14,351 nt of DNA from Alphaproteobacteria bacterium (GTDB lineage: Bacteria > Pseudomonadota > Alphaproteobacteria > RF32 > CAG-239): the NCBI GenBank assembly GCA_017964705.1, contig JAGCRL010000015.1, positions 1 through 14,351 of the forward strand, read 5' to 3'. Of the stretch, positions 1-11,939 are shown one piece after another. Position 1 is the stretch's first letter, and every line of letters begins with the position of its first letter. The position numbers and the translations under genes are program-made. The notes below the pieces were generated by a model. The model was not told the DNA's origin. It saw only the letters and a program-made list of their open reading frames with translations, and searched no databases.

Positions 1-123
1 CACAACACCGCCTTGTGCAACTTCATCACTTAATGTTGTTACGCCGGATAGTATATTCATTGTTCCCTCGCCGGTTACAACTCCTAAAGCAACCTCTCCG
101 CTTGCATTCAACACCCCATCATT
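1..123 (-). repeat. 123-base perfect direct repeat, copy 2 (cut by window edge)
   Basis: Bases 1-123 are identical to bases 1162-1284, an offset of 1161 bases or 387 codons, in frame. The shared peptide runs from DGVLNASGEVALG to SDEVAQGGVV. Identity stops sharply at base 124. It may continue beyond base 1, outside the window. Confidence 0.95.
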
Positions 124-3100
124 TACAATATCAACATTATTACCTTCAAACACTGTATCAGTTACATTTACCGTTCCGCCGTTATTTGTAATTGCCGTAT
201 CAAATCCGTTAACACTGTCAACCCCATCAAGGCTTAATGTCTGGTTTTCAGCCAATGTAATACCGTTATTGCCATCACCGTTTATACCATTTCCGTTTCC
301 GGCTACACTCAAACTATCTCCCTTAAGTGCTGTTTCTTCATCAATTGCCTCATCTCCTGCCATCGTATATGCTTTTTGGTCTGCCTCTAATACTATTGCC
401 GTTACCAAATCTGCATAACTAAACGTCAAATTACCAACCAAATCCTCTGCCGTATATGATACCAAATAGCTATAAGAAGGATTTAATCCGTTTATAGTTA
501 CCGGACCATTTTCCAGTTCTACATTATTCGTCAGCATATCAGCAACTGCTGCATCTGTAGCCTCAATCACTGCAACTGATATCGGCAAATTACTTTCCGC
601 ATCGCTCAACAAATTAATTGCCCCGATAACTAGCTTATTTTCACCGCTTATCGTTGCCACACTCAGCTTATCTGCTGTTTGATTTGCCAAATCCACATCC
701 AGCAATACATTCAAATCACCGGCTGTTAAATCTAATGTATTTATAGCCAATGTTTCTGCAGTATTTCCGCTCAGATCCAACGTTCCTCCCGCTCCCTGCA
801 AATTCTTATTTGCCATATCCAGCTTATCTACTGTCGTCGTCAACGTTCCGGATATCGCCAAATTCGTTCCTATCGTATTTGCATTTGCTACTTCACCGCT
901 GATTTCTGTCACACCGCTTCCGCTGATAGCATTTGCATTTGTACCACCGGTCAACTCAAGCAATCCGTTATTAATAATTCCATTGCTTGCGGTTAAACCA
1001 TCCGCATCACTGACAATCATTCCATCAACCGCATTCGTTATTGTTTCCGCAATAATCGAACCATTATTATTAACCGTTGCACCGCCTTTTGTTTCTAATG
1101 TTGCCACAGTCAAGCTATCTTCAACATTAAGTGTTGTTTCCGTTCCTTCGCTATTCCCAACCACAACACCGCCTTGTGCAACTTCATCACTTAATGTTGT
1201 TACGCCGGATAGTATATTCATTGTTCCCTCGCCGGTTACAACTCCTAAAGCAACCTCTCCGCTTGCATTCAACACCCCATCATTAATAACCTCATCTGAC
1301 AAAGATGTATCATTAAGCACCAACGTTCCCTCATTAGCAACCGCATAGTTAAAGCCGTTCATATCGCTCACATTATTCATCGTCAGCGTATAATCTTCTC
1401 CGACATTAATCCCATCTAAATTATTTTCGGTTGTAATCGCTTTACCATTACCGTTAATCACCAAATCGGCTTTCAAATCATTTTCAATCCAAGCTTCAAC
1501 CACTTCACCATTATCATCGGTTATAGAATAAGCATCAGAAGCATTCTTGATTGCCCCTGGCAATCCGACAACTAAACCATCTTTAGTAAACAGCAAATAA
1601 GATCCTGTATTATCATTTCCGGCCGTCACATTATAGCTTGCTTCACTGGTTGTGATTGTGTAATCGTCTTTTAATACACCGCCGATATTTGTATCTGAAT
1701 AAATAACTTTAAGGTTGATAACATCAGCATCAGAAATAATATTCAAACTAGATAAAATCAGGCTACCATCATCACCAACAACAGCCCCGACCAACTTATC
1801 AGATACACCGTTTGCCAAATCCACATCAAATTGATAAGACAAAGCCGCATCAATCGCAAAAGACAGAGGCGAGAATTCCCCGATAATTCCGTTAGCAGTA
1901 TTTAATGTACTATCTCCGGCAACCGTAAAGTTATTATCATTAATAAATCCGTCCGGATTTGCAACACCGGCATTAGTTGTGGCATTCTGCCCGATAGACA
2001 GTTTTCCGCCATAGAGATTAATATTAAAGATATTCCCTTCTTCATCACCAACTCTATCATTAAATTGAACTTCACCGACATTAGTTATATCAACCGTGTC
2101 GCCTTCTATATCATCATAAGATAAACCGCTTTTATTAATATTCATATTAACATCAACGCCGTCACCATAAGCAGCAATCGTATCATCAAAAATAACTTTC
2201 TTACCATTTGCAGCATTGATATTAAATGCTACACCTGTTTTTTCCCGTACATCATAATAAACAGCTGAACCGCCATTATAAGTATCATCTGTATTATTTG
2301 CGGTATTTCCTCTAAAAATTACATCTTTAGTATTAGCAAAAATATTTAAATTTTCTTCTTGCGCATAAATAGCCGCACCTTCATCCGCAGTATTTCCCGT
2401 AAAATCAGTATCAACTACAAAGAAATCATTTGATTCATACGAATAAATACCACCGCCATAAGGTGCCTCATTATCTTTAATGTCAGATCCTATAAGATAA
2501 ACTGTGCCTGTTCTTATACCTGTTCCCCCAATAAACATTGCGCCACCTGCATCTCCGGATTGGTTGGCCTCAAATGTTGTATTAACTATATATGGCGAAC
2601 TCGCCAATTGAGAATACCAAATAGCGCCACCAGCACCATACACTGCTTTATTATTCTTAAATATTGAATCTGTTATATTTTGCATTGTAGAAGTAACGGT
2701 AATTGCACCTCCGTCATATGTAGTTTGGTTATTAATAAACTGCGAACCATTAATATCTACAACCCCACCGCTCAACTGAAAAGCGCCATACCATCCACCT
2801 TTGTTGTTTTGAACAACAGCATCATTAACAACAGCTATAGTACCGACATAAAAATCTACATTTACAGCGCCATTTTTTGCTTCATTTGAATCAAAAACTA
2901 AACCATTAAGCTCAACGGTTCCTCTGTTTAAAGTCAAAATAGCTCTATCAGCAGTCGTACTTGTATTATGATAGAAGGTTGCATTCGTTATCGTCGCTGT
3001 GTCAGTAGTTTGTGCAAGTTTGATTTCTAAAACTTTACCTGTATTATCTTCAAAATTAGTATCAGTTATTGTAACTACACCATTACTGTTTACAATAGCA

Positions 3101-5535
3101 CCGGTAGTATTTTGATTATTGGAAAAAGTAGAACCATCAATATTCAATGTACCACCACTATTTAACACAGCTATATTATTATTCTCAAACACCGTATCAG
3201 TTATATTTACCGTTCCGCCGTTATTCGTAATTGCTGTACTAAACCCGTTAAAACTATCAACTCCATCAAAGCTCAACGTTTGATTTGCTGCCAATTTAAC
3301 ACCTTTAGTCCCGTTTCCTGTTACAGCATTTCCGTCACCTGTCACACTTAAACTATCGCCATTAAGGGTTGCTTCCTCATTAATTTCTTCCTCTTCGGTC
3401 ATTGTATAAGTTTTTTGGTTTTCTTCTAACTGTATTGCTCTTACCAAACCACCCAACAAGCCATCTTTAGTAAATACCAAATAAGAACCTGTATCATCAT
3501 TTCCGGCTGTAACAGTGTAGCTAGCCTCACTAGTTGTGATTGTATAACCATTCTTTAACACACCGCCGATATTTGTATCCGAATAAACCACTTTCAAATT
3601 TCGCACATCGGCATCAGAAATAATATTCAAACTAGATAAAATCAGGCTACCATCATCACCAACAACAGCCCCGACCAATTTATCCGATACACCGTTTGCC
3701 AAATCCACATCAAGCTGATAAGATAATGCCGCATCAATTGCAAACGCCACCGGAGAAAACTCGCCAATGACCCCGTTTGCGGTATTTAACGTACTATCCC
3801 CTGCAACCGTAAAGTTATTATCATTAATTAAGCCGTCCGGATTATTAGCCGTAGAACCTTTTCCGATAGAGAGCATTCCACCATAAAGATTAATATTGGA
3901 AGTGTTACCATCTCCATCGCCAACTCTGTTATTAAACTGAATTTCACCGGCAGTGCCCGCATTATGAACAGTTTCCGTTTCCCCTTCATAAGTACTATAT
4001 GTTACACCGCTTTTATTAATATCAATAACCGGAACATTTGTTTTTGTTTTAGCAGTAGCAATCGTACCATCAAAAACAATTTTTTTATTCTCTGCCGCAT
4101 TCAAAGACAATGTTGCCGCATAAGATTTAGTTAAAAAGTATATATCATCTCCGGCATTACTAACTGTATTATCTGTTGCACTGTTTCCGCTAAAAATAAC
4201 ATCTTTAGCCGCAGAAATAATCCCGACATCTCCGTTTATAACATAAAGACCACCACCTTGTGTCGCCGTATTATTAGTAAATTCAGGATCTACGACACGA
4301 GCAGAAAATTTTGCATTATTACCATAATCGGCAGAAAAATACATTCCTCCGCCAAGTAATGCTTCATTATCCTTAAAGACAGTATCTTTTACCAATGCAA
4401 CCTTTGGTGTGGAAGGAGTATTAGACATTTCTTCAATATACAAACCACCGCCTTTATTAGCAGAACTATTACTGTCAAATAAAACATTGTCTATTGTCCT
4501 AATATAGCCGCCACCAATTGCTAAACCGCCGCCACCGCCATATTCACTACCAGAAGTTTGTGTGTTACCTATAAATTGTGAATTTTTAACAGAATCAGTG
4601 GTTGCATTATAATGTACATACACCGCACCACCTTCTTGCGCAGACGTATTTCCTTCAAATTTTACATTTTCAATAGTATGTCCGTTACCTTTTGCAATAT
4701 ATATTGCGCCACCTTTTCCCTTGTTAGAACCATTTCTGTTACTGCCAACATTATTAATAAAATAAGAATCTTTTACCGTTACTTTACCACCACCATCAAC
4801 TTTTAAAGCTCCGCCGCTGCCATCACCTGAATTCGGCGCATTTTTATTACCATAAAAAATTGTATTTTCAATATTAGTATTAAATCTACCTCCGCTGATT
4901 ACCGGTCCGGAATCTGCCATAGTATTATTATAAAAAATACTATCAGTTATATTTAAAGTACCAGCACCTGATACACTTACATATATCAACCTGGCATCTC
5001 TGGTATATCCGTTATCGGCAAAAACACTGTTGGTAATACTGACCTCTATTGGAGTATGAACCGTTAAAAAATAGCTCTTCCAATTATTTACAGAGGCTTC
5101 AATTGTTTTATATACCGTATTTCCCTCTAAATCCGTATAAGAAAAAGTATTACTCCCCGCTGTTCCTGCAACATATTTTCCGAAATTTTTTACATTAAGA
5201 GCCGCTGTATTATTTATAGCTAAAGAATAGTAATACCAGCTATCATCACTTTCATCATATACATCTTGAGAAGAAAAATTATGATAATTACCGTCAATCG
5301 TCTGCTCTGTTGCTGTACTAAAAGTAATCGGCCCCGGAAATTCACCAAGTAATTCAGCTTGAATGTCATTCGCAAAGATGATACTTGCTTCACCTTTATT
5401 TTCGTTTATATCGGCCCAACTGGATACCGCGACAGGCTCTGCCTGAACATTAAAAGAATAAAAAACAAAAGAAGCTAGCAGCCCTCCAAAACCCCAAAGC
5501 TTTTTTATCTGCCTGTTTTGTTTTACGCCTGTCAT
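1..5535 (-). CDS. Giant beta-helix, autotransporter/Pmp-like surface protein (3' end outside window)
   Basis: The frame is open for 1845 codons from ATG (5535-5533) to the window edge, with no stop, so the C-terminus is missing. A GGGGAG Shine-Dalgarno lies 7 bases upstream of the start. Residues 1-32 form a signal peptide: basic start (KQNRQIKK), hydrophobic core (LLASFVFYSF) and a likely cut after NVQA. Residues about 130-470 and 710-1110 carry many short repeats of the type FxxN and GG[AG]hYh (for example KGGAIYI, EGGAVYV, GGGLYI). These are typical of right-handed parallel beta-helices and of chlamydial Pmp-like proteins. Three related modules interrupt them at about residues 475-708, 1112-1335 and 1592-1718. 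Family knowledge suggests a type V autotransporter passenger or adhesin that ends in an outer-membrane beta-barrel. That barrel is not in the window, so the secretion route is inferred. Composition is rich in Asn, Thr, Gly and Asp and almost free of Cys, as expected for an exported protein. Confidence 0.87.
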   Translation of the reverse strand, partial: MTGVKQNRQIKKLWGFGGLLASFVFYSFNVQAEPVAVSSWADINENKGEASIIFANDIQAELLGEFPGPITFSTATEQTIDGNYHNFSSQDVYDESDDSWYYYSLAINNTAALNVKNFGKYVAGTAGSNTFSYTDLEGNTVYKTIEASVNNWKSYFLTVHTPIEVSITNSVFADNGYTRDARLIYVSVSGAGTLNITDSIFYNNTMADSGPVISGGRFNTNIENTIFYGNKNAPNSGDGSGGALKVDGGGKVTVKDSYFINNVGSNRNGSNKGKGGAIYIAKGNGHTIENVKFEGNTSAQEGGAVYVHYNATTDSVKNSQFIGNTQTSGSEYGGGGGLAIGGGYIRTIDNVLFDSNSSANKGGGLYIEEMSNTPSTPKVALVKDTVFKDNEALLGGGMYFSADYGNNAKFSARVVDPEFTNNTATQGGGLYVINGDVGIISAAKDVIFSGNSATDNTVSNAGDDIYFLTKSYAATLSLNAAENKKIVFDGTIATAKTKTNVPVIDINKSGVTYSTYEGETETVHNAGTAGEIQFNNRVGDGDGNTSNINLYGGMLSIGKGSTANNPDGLINDNNFTVAGDSTLNTANGVIGEFSPVAFAIDAALSYQLDVDLANGVSDKLVGAVVGDDGSLILSSLNIISDADVRNLKVVYSDTNIGGVLKNGYTITTSEASYTVTAGNDDTGSYLVFTKDGLLGGLVRAIQLEENQKTYTMTEEEEINEEATLNGDSLSVTGDGNAVTGNGTKGVKLAANQTLSFDGVDSFNGFSTAITNNGGTVNITDTVFENNNIAVLNSGGTLNIDGSTFSNNQNTTGAIVNSNGVVTITDTNFEDNTGKVLEIKLAQTTDTATITNATFYHNTSTTADRAILTLNRGTVELNGLVFDSNEAKNGAVNVDFYVGTIAVVNDAVVQNNKGGWYGAFQLSGGVVDINGSQFINNQTTYDGGAITVTSTMQNITDSIFKNNKAVYGAGGAIWYSQLASSPYIVNTTFEANQSGDAGGAMFIGGTGIRTGTVYLIGSDIKDNEAPYGGGIYSYESNDFFVVDTDFTGNTADEGAAIYAQEENLNIFANTKDVIFRGNTANNTDDTYNGGSAVYYDVREKTGVAFNINAANGKKVIFDDTIAAYGDGVDVNMNINKSGLSYDDIEGDTVDITNVGEVQFNDRVGDEEGNIFNINLYGGKLSIGQNATTNAGVANPDGFINDNNFTVAGDSTLNTANGIIGEFSPLSFAIDAALSYQFDVDLANGVSDKLVGAVVGDDGSLILSSLNIISDADVINLKVIYSDTNIGGVLKDDYTITTSEASYNVTAGNDNTGSYLLFTKDGLVVGLPGAIKNASDAYSITDDNGEVVEAWIENDLKADLVINGNGKAITTENNLDGINVGEDYTLTMNNVSDMNGFNYAVANEGTLVLNDTSLSDEVINDGVLNASGEVALGVVTGEGTMNILSGVTTLSDEVAQGGVVVGNSEGTETTLNVEDSLTVATLETKGGATVNNNGSIIAETITNAVDGMIVSDADGLTASNGIINNGLLELTGGTNANAISGSGVTEISGEVANANTIGTNLAISGTLTTTVDKLDMANKNLQGAGGTLDLSGNTAETLAINTLDLTAGDLNVLLDVDLANQTADKLSVATISGENKLVIGAINLLSDAESNLPISVAVIEATDAAVADMLTNNVELENGPVTINGLNPSYSYLVSYTAEDLVGNLTFSYADLVTAIVLEADQKAYTMAGDEAIDEETALKGDSLSVAGNGNGINGDGNNGITLAENQTLSLDGVDSVNGFDTAITNNGGTVNVTDTVFEGNNVDIVNDGVLNASGEVALGVVTGEGTMNILSGVTTLSDEVAQGGVV
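380..760 (-). repeat. Module C (divergent copy 3) of the giant protein
   Basis: This is roughly residues 1592-1718. It keeps DVDLANQTADKLSVATISG, INLLSDAES and an end reading AIVLEADQKAYTM, but lacks the long identical tracts shared by A and B. Its DVDLAN codons lie 1128 bases from those of module B. The following segment (LKGDSLSVAGNG, LAENQTLSLDGVDSVNGF, TAITNNGGTVNVTDTVFE) closely matches the segment after module A, 3039 bases (1013 codons) away. The repeat is therefore really a module plus its follow-on helix cap. Confidence 0.65.
1162..1284 (-). repeat. 123-base perfect direct repeat, copy 1
   Basis: This tract is identical base for base to bases 1-123 and encodes residues 1418-1458 of the giant protein. 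The flanking DNA differs at once at base 1285. Such a sharply bounded, silent-site-identical tract indicates a recent duplication or gene conversion and not protein-level selection. Confidence 0.95.
1530..2225 (-). repeat. Interrupting module B (copy 2) of the giant protein
   Basis: This is roughly residues 1112-1335. It repeats module A in the same order: KKVIFDDTIA, INLYGG, NDNNFTVAGDSTLNTANG, DVDLANGVSDKLVGAVVGDD, SLNIISDADV, YSDTNIGGVLK, and SYLLFTKDGLV. The end (GAIKNASDAYSIT) diverges from module A, and so does the segment that follows it (NLDGINVGEDYTLTMNNV). Confidence 0.8.
1727..1794 (-). repeat. 68-base perfect tract shared by modules A and B (copy in B)
   Basis: This tract is identical to 3611-3678 at an offset of 1884 bases. 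It encodes LVGAVVGDDGSLILSSLNII and the next few residues. Flanking module sequence is similar but has many silent differences. Confidence 0.93.
3410..4110 (-). repeat. Interrupting module A (copy 1) of the giant protein
   Basis: This is roughly residues 475-708. In order it contains a KIVFDGTI segment, INLYGG, NDNNFTVAGDSTLNTANG, DVDLANGVSDKLVGAVVGDD, SLNIISDADV, YSDTNIGGVLK, and an end reading AIQLEENQKTYTM. It aligns almost collinearly with module B, 1884 bases (628 codons) away, including a 68-base identical tract. It lies between two beta-helix stretches. The DVDLAN...DKL segment resembles the repeat-to-linker segments seen near the end of many autotransporter passengers. That comparison is from memory. 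Confidence 0.8.
3611..3678 (-). repeat. 68-base perfect tract shared by modules A and B (copy in A)
   Basis: This is the partner of 1727-1794. The identity covers synonymous positions, while bases 3610 and 3679 already differ. This suggests a local conversion tract inside an older duplication. Confidence 0.93.
5440..5535 (-). other. Signal peptide of the giant surface protein
   Basis: Codons 1-32 encode a basic N-region (Lys5, Arg8, Lys11, Lys12), a hydrophobic core of about 16 residues (WGFGGLLASFVFYSF) and an AXA-like end, NVQA followed by EP. Cleavage is predicted after Ala32. This shows Sec-type export of the mature protein from the cytoplasm. Confidence 0.8.
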
Positions 5536-5564
5536 AATTAGTCTCCCCAAATTAACTTTCCTGT

Positions 5565-5790: not shown

Positions 5791-7083
5791 TTACTTTTTC
5801 TTTGGCAACAATACCGCTTTCCCTCCCATATAAGGTCTTAAAACTTCAGGAATTAGCACACTTCCGTCTGCTTGCAGATTATTTTCCAAAAAGGCAATCA
5901 ACATCCTTGGCGGTGCCACAACCGTATTATTCAAGGTATGCGCAAAATATTTCTTCCCGTTTTTACCGGCAACCCGAATTTTAAGCCGCCGTGCTTGTGC
6001 ATCACCCAATGTCGAGCAAGAGCCGACTTCAAAATATTTCTTTTGCCGCGGTGACCATGCTTCCACATCACAAGACTTCACTTTCAAATCAGCCAAATCC
6101 CCTGAGCAACACTCTAATGTCCGCACCGGAATATCCATCGAGCGGAACAAATCAACCGTATTTTGCCACAGTTTATTATACCAAGCCATACTTTCTTCAG
6201 GCTTACAAATCACACTCCTTTCTTGCTTTTCAAATTGATGGATTCTGTAGATACCTCTCTCTTCCCAACCGTGTGCGCCTTTTTCTTTCCGAAAACAAGG
6301 TGAATAACTTGTCAATGTATAAGGCAACTCTTCTTCCGGAATAATCTGGTCAATAAATTTACCAATCATCGAATGCTCAGATGTTCCGATTAAGAACAAA
6401 TCTTCTCCCTCAATTTTATACATCATTGCATCCATTTCCGCAAAGCTCATCACTCCTTCAACCACCTGCGAGCGGATCATAAACGGCGGCACACAATAAG
6501 TAAACCCTCTATCAATCATAAAGTCCCGTGCATAAGATAACACCGCAGAATGAAGACGGGCAATATCCCCTTGCAAATAATAAAATCCGTTACCGGCCAC
6601 TCGTCTGGCGCTATCCAAATCAATCCCGTCAAATGCTTCCATAATATCGGTATGATATGGCACCTCAAATTCCGGCACTACCGGCTCGCCAAATCTTTCT
6701 ATTTCCACATTTTTTGTATCATCTTCGCCAATCGGCACCGTTGCATCGATAATATTCGGAATAACCATCATCCGTTTACGAATTTCTTCTTGAAGAGTTT
6801 CCTGCTCTCCTTCCAAGGCAATAATTTTATCTCCGATAGCACCACTTTCAGCTTTAATAGCCTCTGCCTCCTCTTTTTTGCCTTGCACCATCAAGCTTCC
6901 GATTTCTTTAGAAATTTTGGTTCTTTTTGCCCGCAACGCCTCAATCTCTGTAATGGCTGCGCGATTTTTTCTATCTAATTCAATAACTTCGTCCACCAAA
7001 GGTAATTTTTTATCTTGAAATTTATTTTTTATATTTTCTTTAACTAGTTCCGGGTTTTCCCTTATCAATTTAATATCAATCAT
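5791..7083 (-). CDS. serS: Seryl-tRNA synthetase
   Basis: This cytoplasmic class II aminoacyl-tRNA synthetase charges tRNA-Ser (and tRNA-Sec where present) with serine. The protein is 430 residues, the normal length. The start at 7083 gives the family N-terminus MIDIKLIREN and has AAAGGAG 6 bases upstream. The frame could extend to a TTG at 7122, but no homologue-like sequence supports that. Residues about 35-105 form the tRNA-binding coiled-coil arm. TSE (234-236) is the serine-binding TxE motif. Motif 2 is CFRKEKG...RIHQFEKQE (263-288). Motif 3 lies in 385-421 and ends IPEVLRPYMGG. Motifs 2 and 3 are of an uncommon type: GAHGWEERG in the motif 2 loop, and TLNNTVVAPPR where classical enzymes have TLNGSGLAVGR. 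The gene stands alone, with its own promoter and terminator. Confidence 0.97.
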   Translation of the reverse strand: MIDIKLIRENPELVKENIKNKFQDKKLPLVDEVIELDRKNRAAITEIEALRAKRTKISKEIGSLMVQGKKEEAEAIKAESGAIGDKIIALEGEQETLQEEIRKRMMVIPNIIDATVPIGEDDTKNVEIERFGEPVVPEFEVPYHTDIMEAFDGIDLDSARRVAGNGFYYLQGDIARLHSAVLSYARDFMIDRGFTYCVPPFMIRSQVVEGVMSFAEMDAMMYKIEGEDLFLIGTSEHSMIGKFIDQIIPEEELPYTLTSYSPCFRKEKGAHGWEERGIYRIHQFEKQERSVICKPEESMAWYNKLWQNTVDLFRSMDIPVRTLECCSGDLADLKVKSCDVEAWSPRQKKYFEVGSCSTLGDAQARRLKIRVAGKNGKKYFAHTLNNTVVAPPRMLIAFLENNLQADGSVLIPEVLRPYMGGKAVLLPKKK

Positions 7084-7128
7084 TTTTTCTCCTTTACATA
7101 AACAACGGCACAACTCTAGCAAATTTCT

Positions 7129-9293: not shown

Positions 9294-10373
9294 ATGACAC
9301 CAAACACAAGTATGTATGAAGCCGCCTGGGACCAAGCTAAAATTTTTTATGATAGTAGCAGTCAAGATGAAGCTGCTTGTAGATTTATTTTCACACAAGC
9401 CTGCATTGCTGCTGCAAACTGTCCCAAACACTACCCCAGAGCTCTTATAGAAGCACTAAAAGAAGTTGGTGACTTTAATGATAAAAATTTAACCAATCTT
9501 CTTTCTCTTTATAATAACGCTGCCATTGCCGCTACAAATATTATAGAAAATAATCCGTCTGGCTCACCAGCCCAATACCTATCTGCAGATTTGCTTAATG
9601 ATATATCTTGTGATTTGCTCTCTCAAATCAGAACTCTTAAACAACAAAGTAAAACCCCCACTCCTGAAGAAAACAAAATTATTCATAGCACAGCCTCAAA
9701 CCTTCTTCAAGGTTATTCTAAAGTAAGTGAATATCGTTCAAATGAGGCACTAAGATTTTATATAGCAGACTTATCTGCTATAGTTAACCCCAATAAAACA
9801 ATCGAAAATATAACCTCTATTATCTGCAAAACTAAACCTTCGGAATATTGCGCCAAAACTGCTTATGAGGCACTATCACAAAACAAAAGCAAATTCAGAT
9901 ATCCGGATGATGTTTCTAATCTATTAAAGGCATATAAAAAAATTAGTTTAGATAATCCTGCTTATGCCGGTGGATCTGCCGATGTAATCTACAATGAAAT
10001 CTTTAACCACTGTTCAACCAATCAAACACTGCAGCAAGAATGCTTAGACACCCTACAATCAGTAATCTACTCAGGAGAATTTTATAAAATTGATCTCCAA
10101 ACGCAATCTAAAATCAATAATTACTGCAATTTAATGAGATCTCGCATAAATATTCGTAATAATTCACGCAGTTCATCTTCAACCAGCCAACCAACCAATT
10201 TCCAAGAAAAAGAAATTAGCTATGGCTATACTCATACCAGAAACAGGCAACAACAACAAGAAGACCTGGAAGAACTAAAACGAGAACAACAACGACAACA
10301 AAAAGAACTAGAACGAAGAAAGCAACAAGAAGAAGAATATGAAATTGATGATGATTATGAAATGGGATATTAA
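9294..10373 (+). CDS. Unrecognised helical protein with charged Gln/Glu/Arg C-terminal tail
   Basis: The product has 359 residues. The start has GAGGAAGAG a few bases upstream. The first 280 or so residues appear to be stacked helices with scattered cysteines (for example FIFTQACIAAANCPKHYP and IICKTKPSEYCAKTAYEAL). A Ser/Asn-rich linker (NIRNNSRSSSSTSQPTNF) follows. From residue 316 a tail of 44 residues begins with a Gln/Glu/Arg/Lys coiled-coil-like stretch (EDLEELKREQQRQQKELERR) and ends acidic (EIDDDYEMGY). There is no signal peptide or membrane segment. The stop codon touches the ATG of the S41 peptidase (TAAATG), which indicates translational coupling and a shared role. It could be a substrate, scaffold or regulator of the peptidase, but that is speculation. 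The family is not recognised. Confidence 0.85.
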   Translation: MTPNTSMYEAAWDQAKIFYDSSSQDEAACRFIFTQACIAAANCPKHYPRALIEALKEVGDFNDKNLTNLLSLYNNAAIAATNIIENNPSGSPAQYLSADLLNDISCDLLSQIRTLKQQSKTPTPEENKIIHSTASNLLQGYSKVSEYRSNEALRFYIADLSAIVNPNKTIENITSIICKTKPSEYCAKTAYEALSQNKSKFRYPDDVSNLLKAYKKISLDNPAYAGGSADVIYNEIFNHCSTNQTLQQECLDTLQSVIYSGEFYKIDLQTQSKINNYCNLMRSRINIRNNSRSSSSTSQPTNFQEKEISYGYTHTRNRQQQQEDLEELKREQQRQQKELERRKQQEEEYEIDDDYEMGY

Positions 10374-11939
10374 ATGGCAACACAAAAAGAAATAGATATC
10401 GCCTTTCAACAGATTGTTTCGTCGGCATCTGATTTAGATATGGTGTTACCAAAACCACCCAAAGCTGCTGATGAAAAATTATCCCCCAAAGAACAACAAA
10501 AAATGCTCGCTGTTTTTGCACGTTATATCAGCGAAGGACATCCCGGTTTTGCCCCCAAAGCATTCGAAAACATCACTTTTTCAGACGCTGTAAAAAATAA
10601 ATTTAAAACCGAATTTGTAAAATTATATCTAAGTTGCAAAGATGAATGTAACCTAGCAGACATGGGCAAAAAACTTTTCCTGTTTGCCAAAAAACATCTT
10701 CCGGATAATCACTTTAATGTTTACAATTCACAAGGCACTCCTATCGGTATGACCTTAAACAAACAAGACCATGCTGCTTTTAAGAAAGAACTTACCACCT
10801 ACTTACAACAACAAAATATTGATTCCTCCCAACGCGGCATACTTGAACATTTCTATTCAAAGCGCCGCCAAGTCGGAAAAAATTTATTTTATGACGAAGA
10901 ATTTGAGCTTTTACAACAAAATGGTGCCAAAATTTTATCCGATAAACAAGGCAAAACTTGGCGCATGACCAAAATCAATCACCACGGTCAAAATCTCATG
11001 ATAATCGGCATGAAACGTTTTGATGCCATAGCCGCAAATGGTCAATTAAACAAAGACTTAATCAAAGATTACACTGCTTTAGCTAAAGAATTTTCCAAAC
11101 AGGAACACACTCTTTGTGATGCGCTGATTTTAGATTTACGCGGCAATCTTGGCGGCTGGCCCTATATCGGCGACTATATCGCTCGCACGTTATATGGAAA
11201 CACCGTCTCAACCGAACCGCAAAGACATCTTAAAATGGATACTTTAGCCGCCAAATTAAGTTATGCTTTCATGGTACAAGAAGATTATAACAGCTATACA
11301 AATAAAAAAGCACGTTTAAGATTAATGCATGAACGACAAAACACTCAATACCATCAAACCGACACACCTTGGGCCGAAGCTCATCCGTTTAATCCGAAAT
11401 TAGGCTACCAAAAGCCGATTTTGGTATTAACCGACCAATCCACCGGCTCAAATGCGGAACAGACCATCGGTCGTTTACGTGAACATCCGTTCGTACGCAC
11501 TTTGGGTGAGCATAGTTACGGTGTAGTTCAATATCATCCGGCCGCAACTCCATCAACATCTATTCCTTTGCCCTATGGCTTAAAAATAGCCGTCCCGCCG
11601 GAAGGCTTTTCCGGTCCTAACGGAGAAAAACTGGAAGGCATCGGCTATCAGCCGGATTATCCTACTCCCAAAGGTCAAGATGCTCTGTTAGCAGGGTTAG
11701 AAAATTTTGCAAAAATTACTCAAGAAATTTTACAACACTTGCCACCGGAACAAGTTGTTACCTCTCAAGCCAAACGTGAAGCAAAAATTGATGAAACAAC
11801 CAACCGCAACCTTCAAGGTATCGCCCCCGATAATCCTGAATTACGAGCCGCCTTTAATGAGTTGGTAGAAACAACTGCCGTTATTCCGCAATTAAAAACC
11901 TCAGCCACTCATATCAAATCCAAAGACCATCAATCATAA
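10374..11939 (+). CDS. S41-family (C-terminal processing-type) peptidase without export signal
   Basis: The product has 521 residues. The region from about 205 to 430 carries the S41 core: ALILDLRGNLGGWP (250-263), ILVLTDQSTGSNAEQTIG (349-366) with likely nucleophile Ser359, LGEHSYGVV (377-385), and EGIGYQPDYP (421-430), which matches the usual GxGxxPD end. The usual Ser-Lys pair of CtpA-type enzymes is not obvious after Ser359 (AEQTIGRLRE). The tricorn/retinal-binding-type Ser-His arrangement is therefore also possible. The N-terminal 200 residues contain a helical segment and a LPDNHFNVYNSQG stretch, and no PDZ domain was recognised. The N-terminus (MATQKEIDIAFQQIV) has no signal peptide, so it is probably cytoplasmic, unlike most S41 peptidases. 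It begins directly after the upstream stop codon with only a weak ribosome site, consistent with coupling. Confidence 0.85.
   Translation: MATQKEIDIAFQQIVSSASDLDMVLPKPPKAADEKLSPKEQQKMLAVFARYISEGHPGFAPKAFENITFSDAVKNKFKTEFVKLYLSCKDECNLADMGKKLFLFAKKHLPDNHFNVYNSQGTPIGMTLNKQDHAAFKKELTTYLQQQNIDSSQRGILEHFYSKRRQVGKNLFYDEEFELLQQNGAKILSDKQGKTWRMTKINHHGQNLMIIGMKRFDAIAANGQLNKDLIKDYTALAKEFSKQEHTLCDALILDLRGNLGGWPYIGDYIARTLYGNTVSTEPQRHLKMDTLAAKLSYAFMVQEDYNSYTNKKARLRLMHERQNTQYHQTDTPWAEAHPFNPKLGYQKPILVLTDQSTGSNAEQTIGRLREHPFVRTLGEHSYGVVQYHPAATPSTSIPLPYGLKIAVPPEGFSGPNGEKLEGIGYQPDYPTPKGQDALLAGLENFAKITQEILQHLPPEQVVTSQAKREAKIDETTNRNLQGIAPDNPELRAAFNELVETTAVIPQLKTSATHIKSKDHQS

Follow-up and report, generated by a model that had tools for sequence, protein, structure and literature searches.

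It is not settled how passengers of several thousand residues traverse the outer membrane and fold; the model in the literature relies on one basal nucleus. This question is raised by contig JAGCRL010000015.1 (assembly GCA_017964705.1) of an Alphaproteobacteria bacterium (GTDB lineage RF32; CAG-239), hereafter the window, meaning the whole stretch of 14,351 bases that was analyzed, one end of which is occupied by a giant open reading frame (ORF). According to our analysis, this ORF is the first three units of a multi-unit autotransporter with reiterated autochaperone-like domains. Our preferred reading, to which we assign a probability of about 0.6, is that it encodes the N-terminal portion of a classical (type Va-like) autotransporter of giant size, with a passenger that consists of self-contained units in a chain and folds in stages. 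Each unit would comprise a helix-start segment, then a beta-helix and then an autochaperone-like module of about 140 residues. The comparisons presented here show how the passenger is divided into units, that this architecture recurs in the family, that relatives have the barrel and that the mosaic arose by unit duplication and exchange, while the staged folding is put forward as a hypothesis.

The features of the ORF are listed from its start to the contig end; amino acid (aa) numbering is counted from the in-frame TTG at 5550, which lies upstream of the ATG at 5535, and modules were defined with a hidden Markov model (HMM).

1..5535, minus strand: giant passenger ORF of 1845 codons or more, running off the contig end.
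5440..5535, minus strand: signal peptide, aa 6-37, by eye only.
3946..5439, minus strand: beta-helix 1 of unit 1, aa 38-535, carrying FxxN/GGA repeats; its orthologue is the N-terminus of a one-module relative (G150:C130), 41% identity over 421 aligned residues.
3445..3861, minus strand: module A, autochaperone-like, aa 564-702, HMM-defined.
3151..3444, minus strand: segment after A, start of the next beta-helix, C-type, aa 703-800; resemblance to B gives way to resemblance to C at about aa 700.
1561..3450, minus strand: extra unit, about 628 aa long, that the one-module orthologue lacks; its ends coincide with module ends.
2077..3150, minus strand: beta-helix 2 of unit 2, aa 801-1158, with FxxN/GGA repeats.
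1561..1971, minus strand: module B, aa 1194-1330, HMM-defined; core 87% identical to A.
1162..1560, minus strand: segment after B, start of the next beta-helix, aa 1331-1463; 65% identity over 100 residues to its counterpart in G150.
853..1161, minus strand: stretch of unit 3 from the segment after B to module C, aa 1464-1566.
394..852, minus strand: module C, aa 1567-1719, HMM-defined; pairs with module 5 of the 4165-aa protein of G013.
1..393, minus strand: segment after C, A-like at first (76% DNA identity) and B-like towards its end.
1..123, no strand: exact 123-nt repeat of 1162-1284, at the contig end.

The ORF meets no stop between the ATG, with a GGGGAG just 5' of it, and base 1. The window is the entire contig C263 of a fragmented bin (G000; 1.23 Mb, 283 contigs, 81.9% complete), and it breaks off within the 123-nt exact repeat, leaving the C-terminus of the ORF unassembled; the repeat might continue in tandem past base 1. 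A putative signal peptide, which ends in NVQA, is clear by eye. Pfam Chlam_PMP was matched above its cut-off (22.7 vs. 20.6 bits), with no other Pfam family up to E 0.1, and NCBIfam POMP_repeat likewise exceeded its cut-off (17.6 vs. 15). The motif FxxN occurs 24 times (mean 6.9 and maximum 16 in 1000 shuffles) and GG[AG] followed by a hydrophobic residue 11 times (mean 1.5, maximum 7); 21 of the 24 former and all 11 of the latter lie within helix 1 (aa 38-480) or helix 2 (aa 776-1108). The ORF has a beta-helical passenger, as in classical type Va autotransporters. An earlier note, made from the letters of this DNA alone, had described an ORF of at least 1845 codons with a signal peptide and two Pmp-like beta-helices, and the absence of a stop, the two profile matches and the motif counts bear this out, the signal peptide standing on inspection by eye.

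The same note had seen one module after both helices, at 4110-3410 (A) and 2225-1530 (B), and a third, divergent copy C. The modules proved to be real, with cores of A and B 87% identical at the protein level and C 29–30% identical to either, but the proposed bounds also take in the last, more divergent part of each helix. The module profile, begun from three copies and iterated on relatives, covers about 140–150 positions. A blastp self-comparison of the whole protein gave no off-diagonal rows, and a comparison of 100-aa segments was used instead. It recovered the module repeats with 80 off-diagonal matches at E 1e-3 (best 3e-58), against 0–12 matches in each of 20 shuffles (best 1e-8). The segment after A reappears after C, as had also been claimed (3155-3448 vs. 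116-409, 76% DNA identity), and the far end of the latter resembles the segment after B (1-133 vs. 1162-1294, 97%), bases 1-123 being exact. Within the segment after C, an AlphaFold2 (AF2) model built from three sequences predicts beta-strands at aa 1730-1809, with a predicted local distance difference test (pLDDT) score of 82–92. A new beta-helix start follows every module of the window, and one of the same kind opens 4 of 21 N-termini. Outside its own training set, the helix-start HMM gave 10 matches after modules, 4 at N-termini and 1 elsewhere; 11 of its 21 after-module matches are its own training segments.

No relative of the giant protein was found among named genomes in a whole-protein locus search. 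Counting the window's own genome in each case, an alignment of ten modules matched 42 of 152 family genomes and, in a class-wide draw, 3 of 385 genomes, one of them outside the family (E 1.4e-5). The 93 family matches fell in 69 ORFs, 18 of which, spread over 12 genomes, carry 2–5 modules; among 25 module ORFs in extracted stretches picked for strong or multiple matches, 16 had at least two. In G013, of the same genus, a complete ORF of 4165 aa combines five modules with an Autotransporter barrel at its C-terminus (PF03797, E 1.3e-38). A barrel match is also present in further complete multi-module ORFs, namely in G027 (three modules), G129 (four), and G109, G150 (minus strand) and G135 (two each), and multi-unit relatives terminate in one barrel. 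The orthologue of the window N-terminus, G150:C130, has one module and, as in G013, a C-terminal barrel in the same ORF, here cut by the contig end. The arrangement of passenger units head to tail, which had been suggested for the window, is supported by the new helix starts after modules, by single-unit relatives and by the one barrel of multi-unit relatives.

A second C-terminal domain type was delimited as the last 300 residues, cut from the C-terminus, of eight module ORFs with a complete 3' end and without the PF03797-type barrel. The Pfam barrel was absent from the three of these that were scanned (G011, C168 and C14). We take this domain to be a putative barrel as well because its profile aligns with that of the first type (E 7e-6, probability 85%) and because TIGR01414 matches one of five ORFs scanned.

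Several further giant ORFs were observed. The window's own genome has a second one (G000:C207, L086:3-6041, minus strand), which carries three modules in 2013 codons and is likewise open at the contig end. In G013, the 5'-open ORF of C14 (L091) has two modules and the second barrel type, and the 3'-open ORF of C18 (L092; 3807 aa) has six modules; these may be parts of one still larger gene, and C168 and C51 in the window's genome could be related in the same way. A module ORF of 2438 aa in G005:C12 (L101) is open at the contig end, as is one of 4238 aa in G137:C1 (L095), whose terminal repeats NADALLGGRIDAETTNRE are unlike a beta-helix and recall coiled-coil stalks.

Is the module an autochaperone? 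Passages of the literature describe passengers whose C-terminus emerges first and whose helix is nucleated by a stable core or autochaperone at that end (PMC5895577, PMC8151025, PMC5767081), and place autochaperones generally near the translocator and some at a distance (PMC5767081, whose Table 1S might record several per protein). Our module looks like a divergent autochaperone. In seven of the eight ORFs of the second type the last module ends 1–23 residues before the C-terminal 300-aa domain, roughly 50–75 residues before the first barrel strand that aligns with the other type; the exception is G135, where 973 residues intervene. The module directly precedes the C-terminal domain in the single-unit relatives G011, G006 and G012, and in K-12 Ag43 the autochaperone match ends 76 residues before the barrel match.

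A localization test was performed with an HMM of 72 modules over K-12 Ag43, YfaL, YpjA and YcgV and the family member G025. The best match lay inside or overlapping the AC_1/Pertactin match in the Pfam-scanned Ag43, YpjA, YcgV and G025; in YfaL it fell, by eye, in the equivalent stretch before the barrel. The scores were 16.0 (YfaL), 9.8 (Ag43), 5.7 (YpjA), 3.8 (YcgV) and 5.8 bits (G025), those of the first three being above all of 97–100 shuffles each. In addition, matches of the module profile coincide with those of PF03212 at G064:C8, G029:C4 and G112:C56, with PF03212 above its cut-off at the first two; the registers agree within a few positions there and drift by about ten at G112:C56.

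A number of results weigh against the preferred reading. YcgV and G025 did not score above their shuffles, the reversed G025 outscored G025 itself (7.3 vs. 5.8 bits), and the match in YcgV is out of register. The window modules fall below the Pfam AC_1/Pertactin cut-offs, and only 5 of the 72 modules match Pertactin, weakly (best E 0.0042). Profile–profile comparison with the pre-barrel stretches of G025 and Ag43 was not significant (probability 0.8 and 2.5%), and PDB sequence searches with 10 and 72 modules returned weak unrelated matches (best E 0.15 and 0.32). AF2 models from three sequences, of module A with its flanks and of module C, left most of the module at a pLDDT of about 30, and Foldseek with the module A model gave nothing at E 0.001 or better; we draw no conclusion on the module fold from them. 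In ORFs of the PF03797 type the last module lies 363–845 aa upstream of the barrel in eight of eight cases, in none directly before it. In these ORFs another element is barrel-proximal, and theirs is the barrel type expected for the window. Of the 21 N-termini, 17 gave no match to the helix-start HMM. Finally, no barrel was seen in the approximately 1850 aa of the window ORF, and when the C-terminal 1019 aa of the G013 protein were searched in the window's genome, only the window itself matched and no barrel contig appeared. For the identity of the module, the localization test is nevertheless better evidence than the profile–profile comparison, its weak members notwithstanding.

The alternative that survives best, albeit rather unlikely in our view, is that the modules are mere spacers or adhesive domains between the helices, with autochaperone ancestry but no folding role in the passenger. 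It would account for the distance between module and barrel in all eight proteins of the PF03797 type and for the strong divergence of internal modules (29–30% between C and A or B, and a mean column identity of 17% over the 72 modules). However, two columns of aspartate are conserved in 90% or more of these same modules, and a fresh helix start follows the modules in the window and in several relatives, as would be expected if the preceding helix has to be nucleated and closed there.

The history of the gene can be followed by comparison with G150:C130. Apart from helix 1, this orthologue shares its module with the window (60% identity to A and 62% to B), and its after-module segment shares 65% identity with the segment after B but 33% with the one after A. 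Since the orthologue's segment matches the one after B, the window has an extra stretch of approximately aa 701-1330 between the module and its old neighbor. The extra piece is a whole unit of helix start, helix and module, about 628 aa long, and not one module inserted into a beta-helix as the earlier note had proposed. Along A, likeness to B stops and likeness to C begins at about aa 700. In a tree of 72 modules (support given as paired values), A is sister to B (92/91, slightly short of the value that the program counts as firm support), G150 joins them in one clade (100/99), and C forms a pair with module 5 of G013 (100/100). In C207, the three modules pair with G013 modules 4 (94/83), 1 (100/97) and 2 (100/100). 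The sister relation of A and B, with the single module of the orthologue outside, points to in-gene duplication, and the pairing of C with the fifth module of another giant protein points to exchange between paralogues. Synonymous distances are unequal, at 0.78 for the A/B modules, 0.85 for the segments following A and C, and 0.03 for the B/C end (45 codons), which suggests events of different age.

The earlier note had instead suggested a fusion of neighboring autotransporter genes that lost their barrels. Neighboring genes of this kind do exist: G109:C52 has two module ORFs on one strand, separated by 2.7 kb, and G150:C130 has an adjacent, divergently oriented pair. The modules of one protein also belong to different lineages. 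Nevertheless, we consider fusion improbable: a search of four giant ORFs for barrel relics at the unit junctions found none at E up to 10, the tree joins A and B to the exclusion of the one-module orthologue (at the support given above), and the extra stretch starts and stops at module ends, as duplication or unequal exchange would leave it. On these sequence relationships, whole-unit duplication and exchange fit best, and the unit architecture and the mosaic origin are well supported.

It is very unlikely that the protein is not an autotransporter at all and represents a two-partner or other secreted repeat protein without its own barrel, as its 1850 barrel-less residues might suggest, since relatives of both unit types of the window have a C-terminal barrel match in the same ORF. 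Least probable of all is an assembly artefact in which repeats made the assembler join pieces of different genes. The exact internal repeat at the contig end and the fragmentation of the bin (283 contigs, 82% complete) would fit this, but the C unit plus the segment after it can be aligned over its full length with G013, which was assembled independently (48% over 356 residues), unit 1 aligns with G150, and multi-module ORFs occur in 12 genomes.

Under the preferred reading of a multi-unit autotransporter, the missing C-terminus of the window copy would consist of more helix and a barrel, and the protein would probably be an adhesin or another surface fiber. Every internal module may be the folding nucleus of its own unit, in which case the giant passenger would exit and fold stagewise, C-terminal unit first, and not from one basal nucleus. 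Extended to the family, a more tentative proposal, which we hold at somewhat less than even odds, is that its giant autotransporters export their passengers in this stagewise fashion, with modules acting as serial ratchets that nucleate the preceding helix, and that units are swapped between paralogues like cassettes, with crossovers at module ends. In the open-licence literature, as represented by titles, abstract openings and passages, we found no description of multiple, internal or second autochaperones or of tandem or duplicated passengers. The natural series of 1, 2, 3, 4 and 5 module copies makes it testable whether nucleation occurs once or per unit, and whole-unit duplication and exchange provides a route for giant surface proteins to grow and diversify.

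The other genes of the window were also inspected. The serS gene (5791-7122, minus strand) matches that of Alphaproteobacteria bacterium UBA3650 at 85% identity (best segment), and among the best 80 of 581 loci its next-best relatives, at 76–82%, are mostly from Lachnospiraceae and other Clostridia. The serS scores of G000, G001 and G005 are 405–416 bits, against 439.5–455 in the other 14 genus members above the cut-off. These sequence comparisons suggest that serS may have been replaced by a Clostridia-type gene. No terminator was found after serS by the rule of the promoter/terminator scan. An ORF for a family S41 peptidase (10374-11939, plus strand; Peptidase_S41, E 6e-16), with no link to the giant protein shown, is adjoined by an ORF with a Q/E-rich end (9294-10373).

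Among known systems, the PATR repeat is described, in the passages available from PMC9977779, as a conserved repeat with an important part in secreting the passenger efficiently; it spans residues 464-496 there, as against about 140 residues for our module, and PATR is not among the Pfam matches of the window ORF. Chlamydial Pmp proteins share the FxxN and GGA beta-helix repeats with the window ORF, and an autochaperone-like middle domain before their barrel is described in passages of PMC11166332. However, the window protein has several helix–module units and Pmp one, and the Pmp middle domain PF07548 gave no match in the window ORF (E to 0.1) or in the complete G013 ORF (E to 1). The Pertactin and AIDA/Ag43 types follow the same plan of signal peptide, beta-helix, autochaperone and barrel, but the K-12 examples scanned have one autochaperone match near the base. 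Neither the Pertactin nor the AIDA family is among the Pfam matches of the window ORF, and the AIDA stalk repeat PF16168 was found in neither the window ORF nor G013, whereas the same library finds it in K-12 Ag43 and YpjA.

A further close counterpart is the type 1 autochaperone (AC_1 PF18883, Pertactin PF03212; described in passages of PMC5767081), which like our module follows a beta-helix; the module also lies directly before the C-terminal domain in some relatives. The two differ in that the module stays below the Pfam cut-offs in the window and in copy number: 18 of 69 ORFs carry 2–5 modules, whereas in 398 genomes of the phylum the 117 AC_1 matches fell in 117 different ORFs, 14 of them of at least 1800 aa. 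The counts are not like for like, the module profile having been trained on internal copies, while the AC_1 search would miss weak second copies below its E 0.001 threshold and might not report two matches in one ORF. In five of five reference autotransporters the best match of the module HMM falls on the type 1 autochaperone, and at three family loci the module profile and PF03212 overlap.

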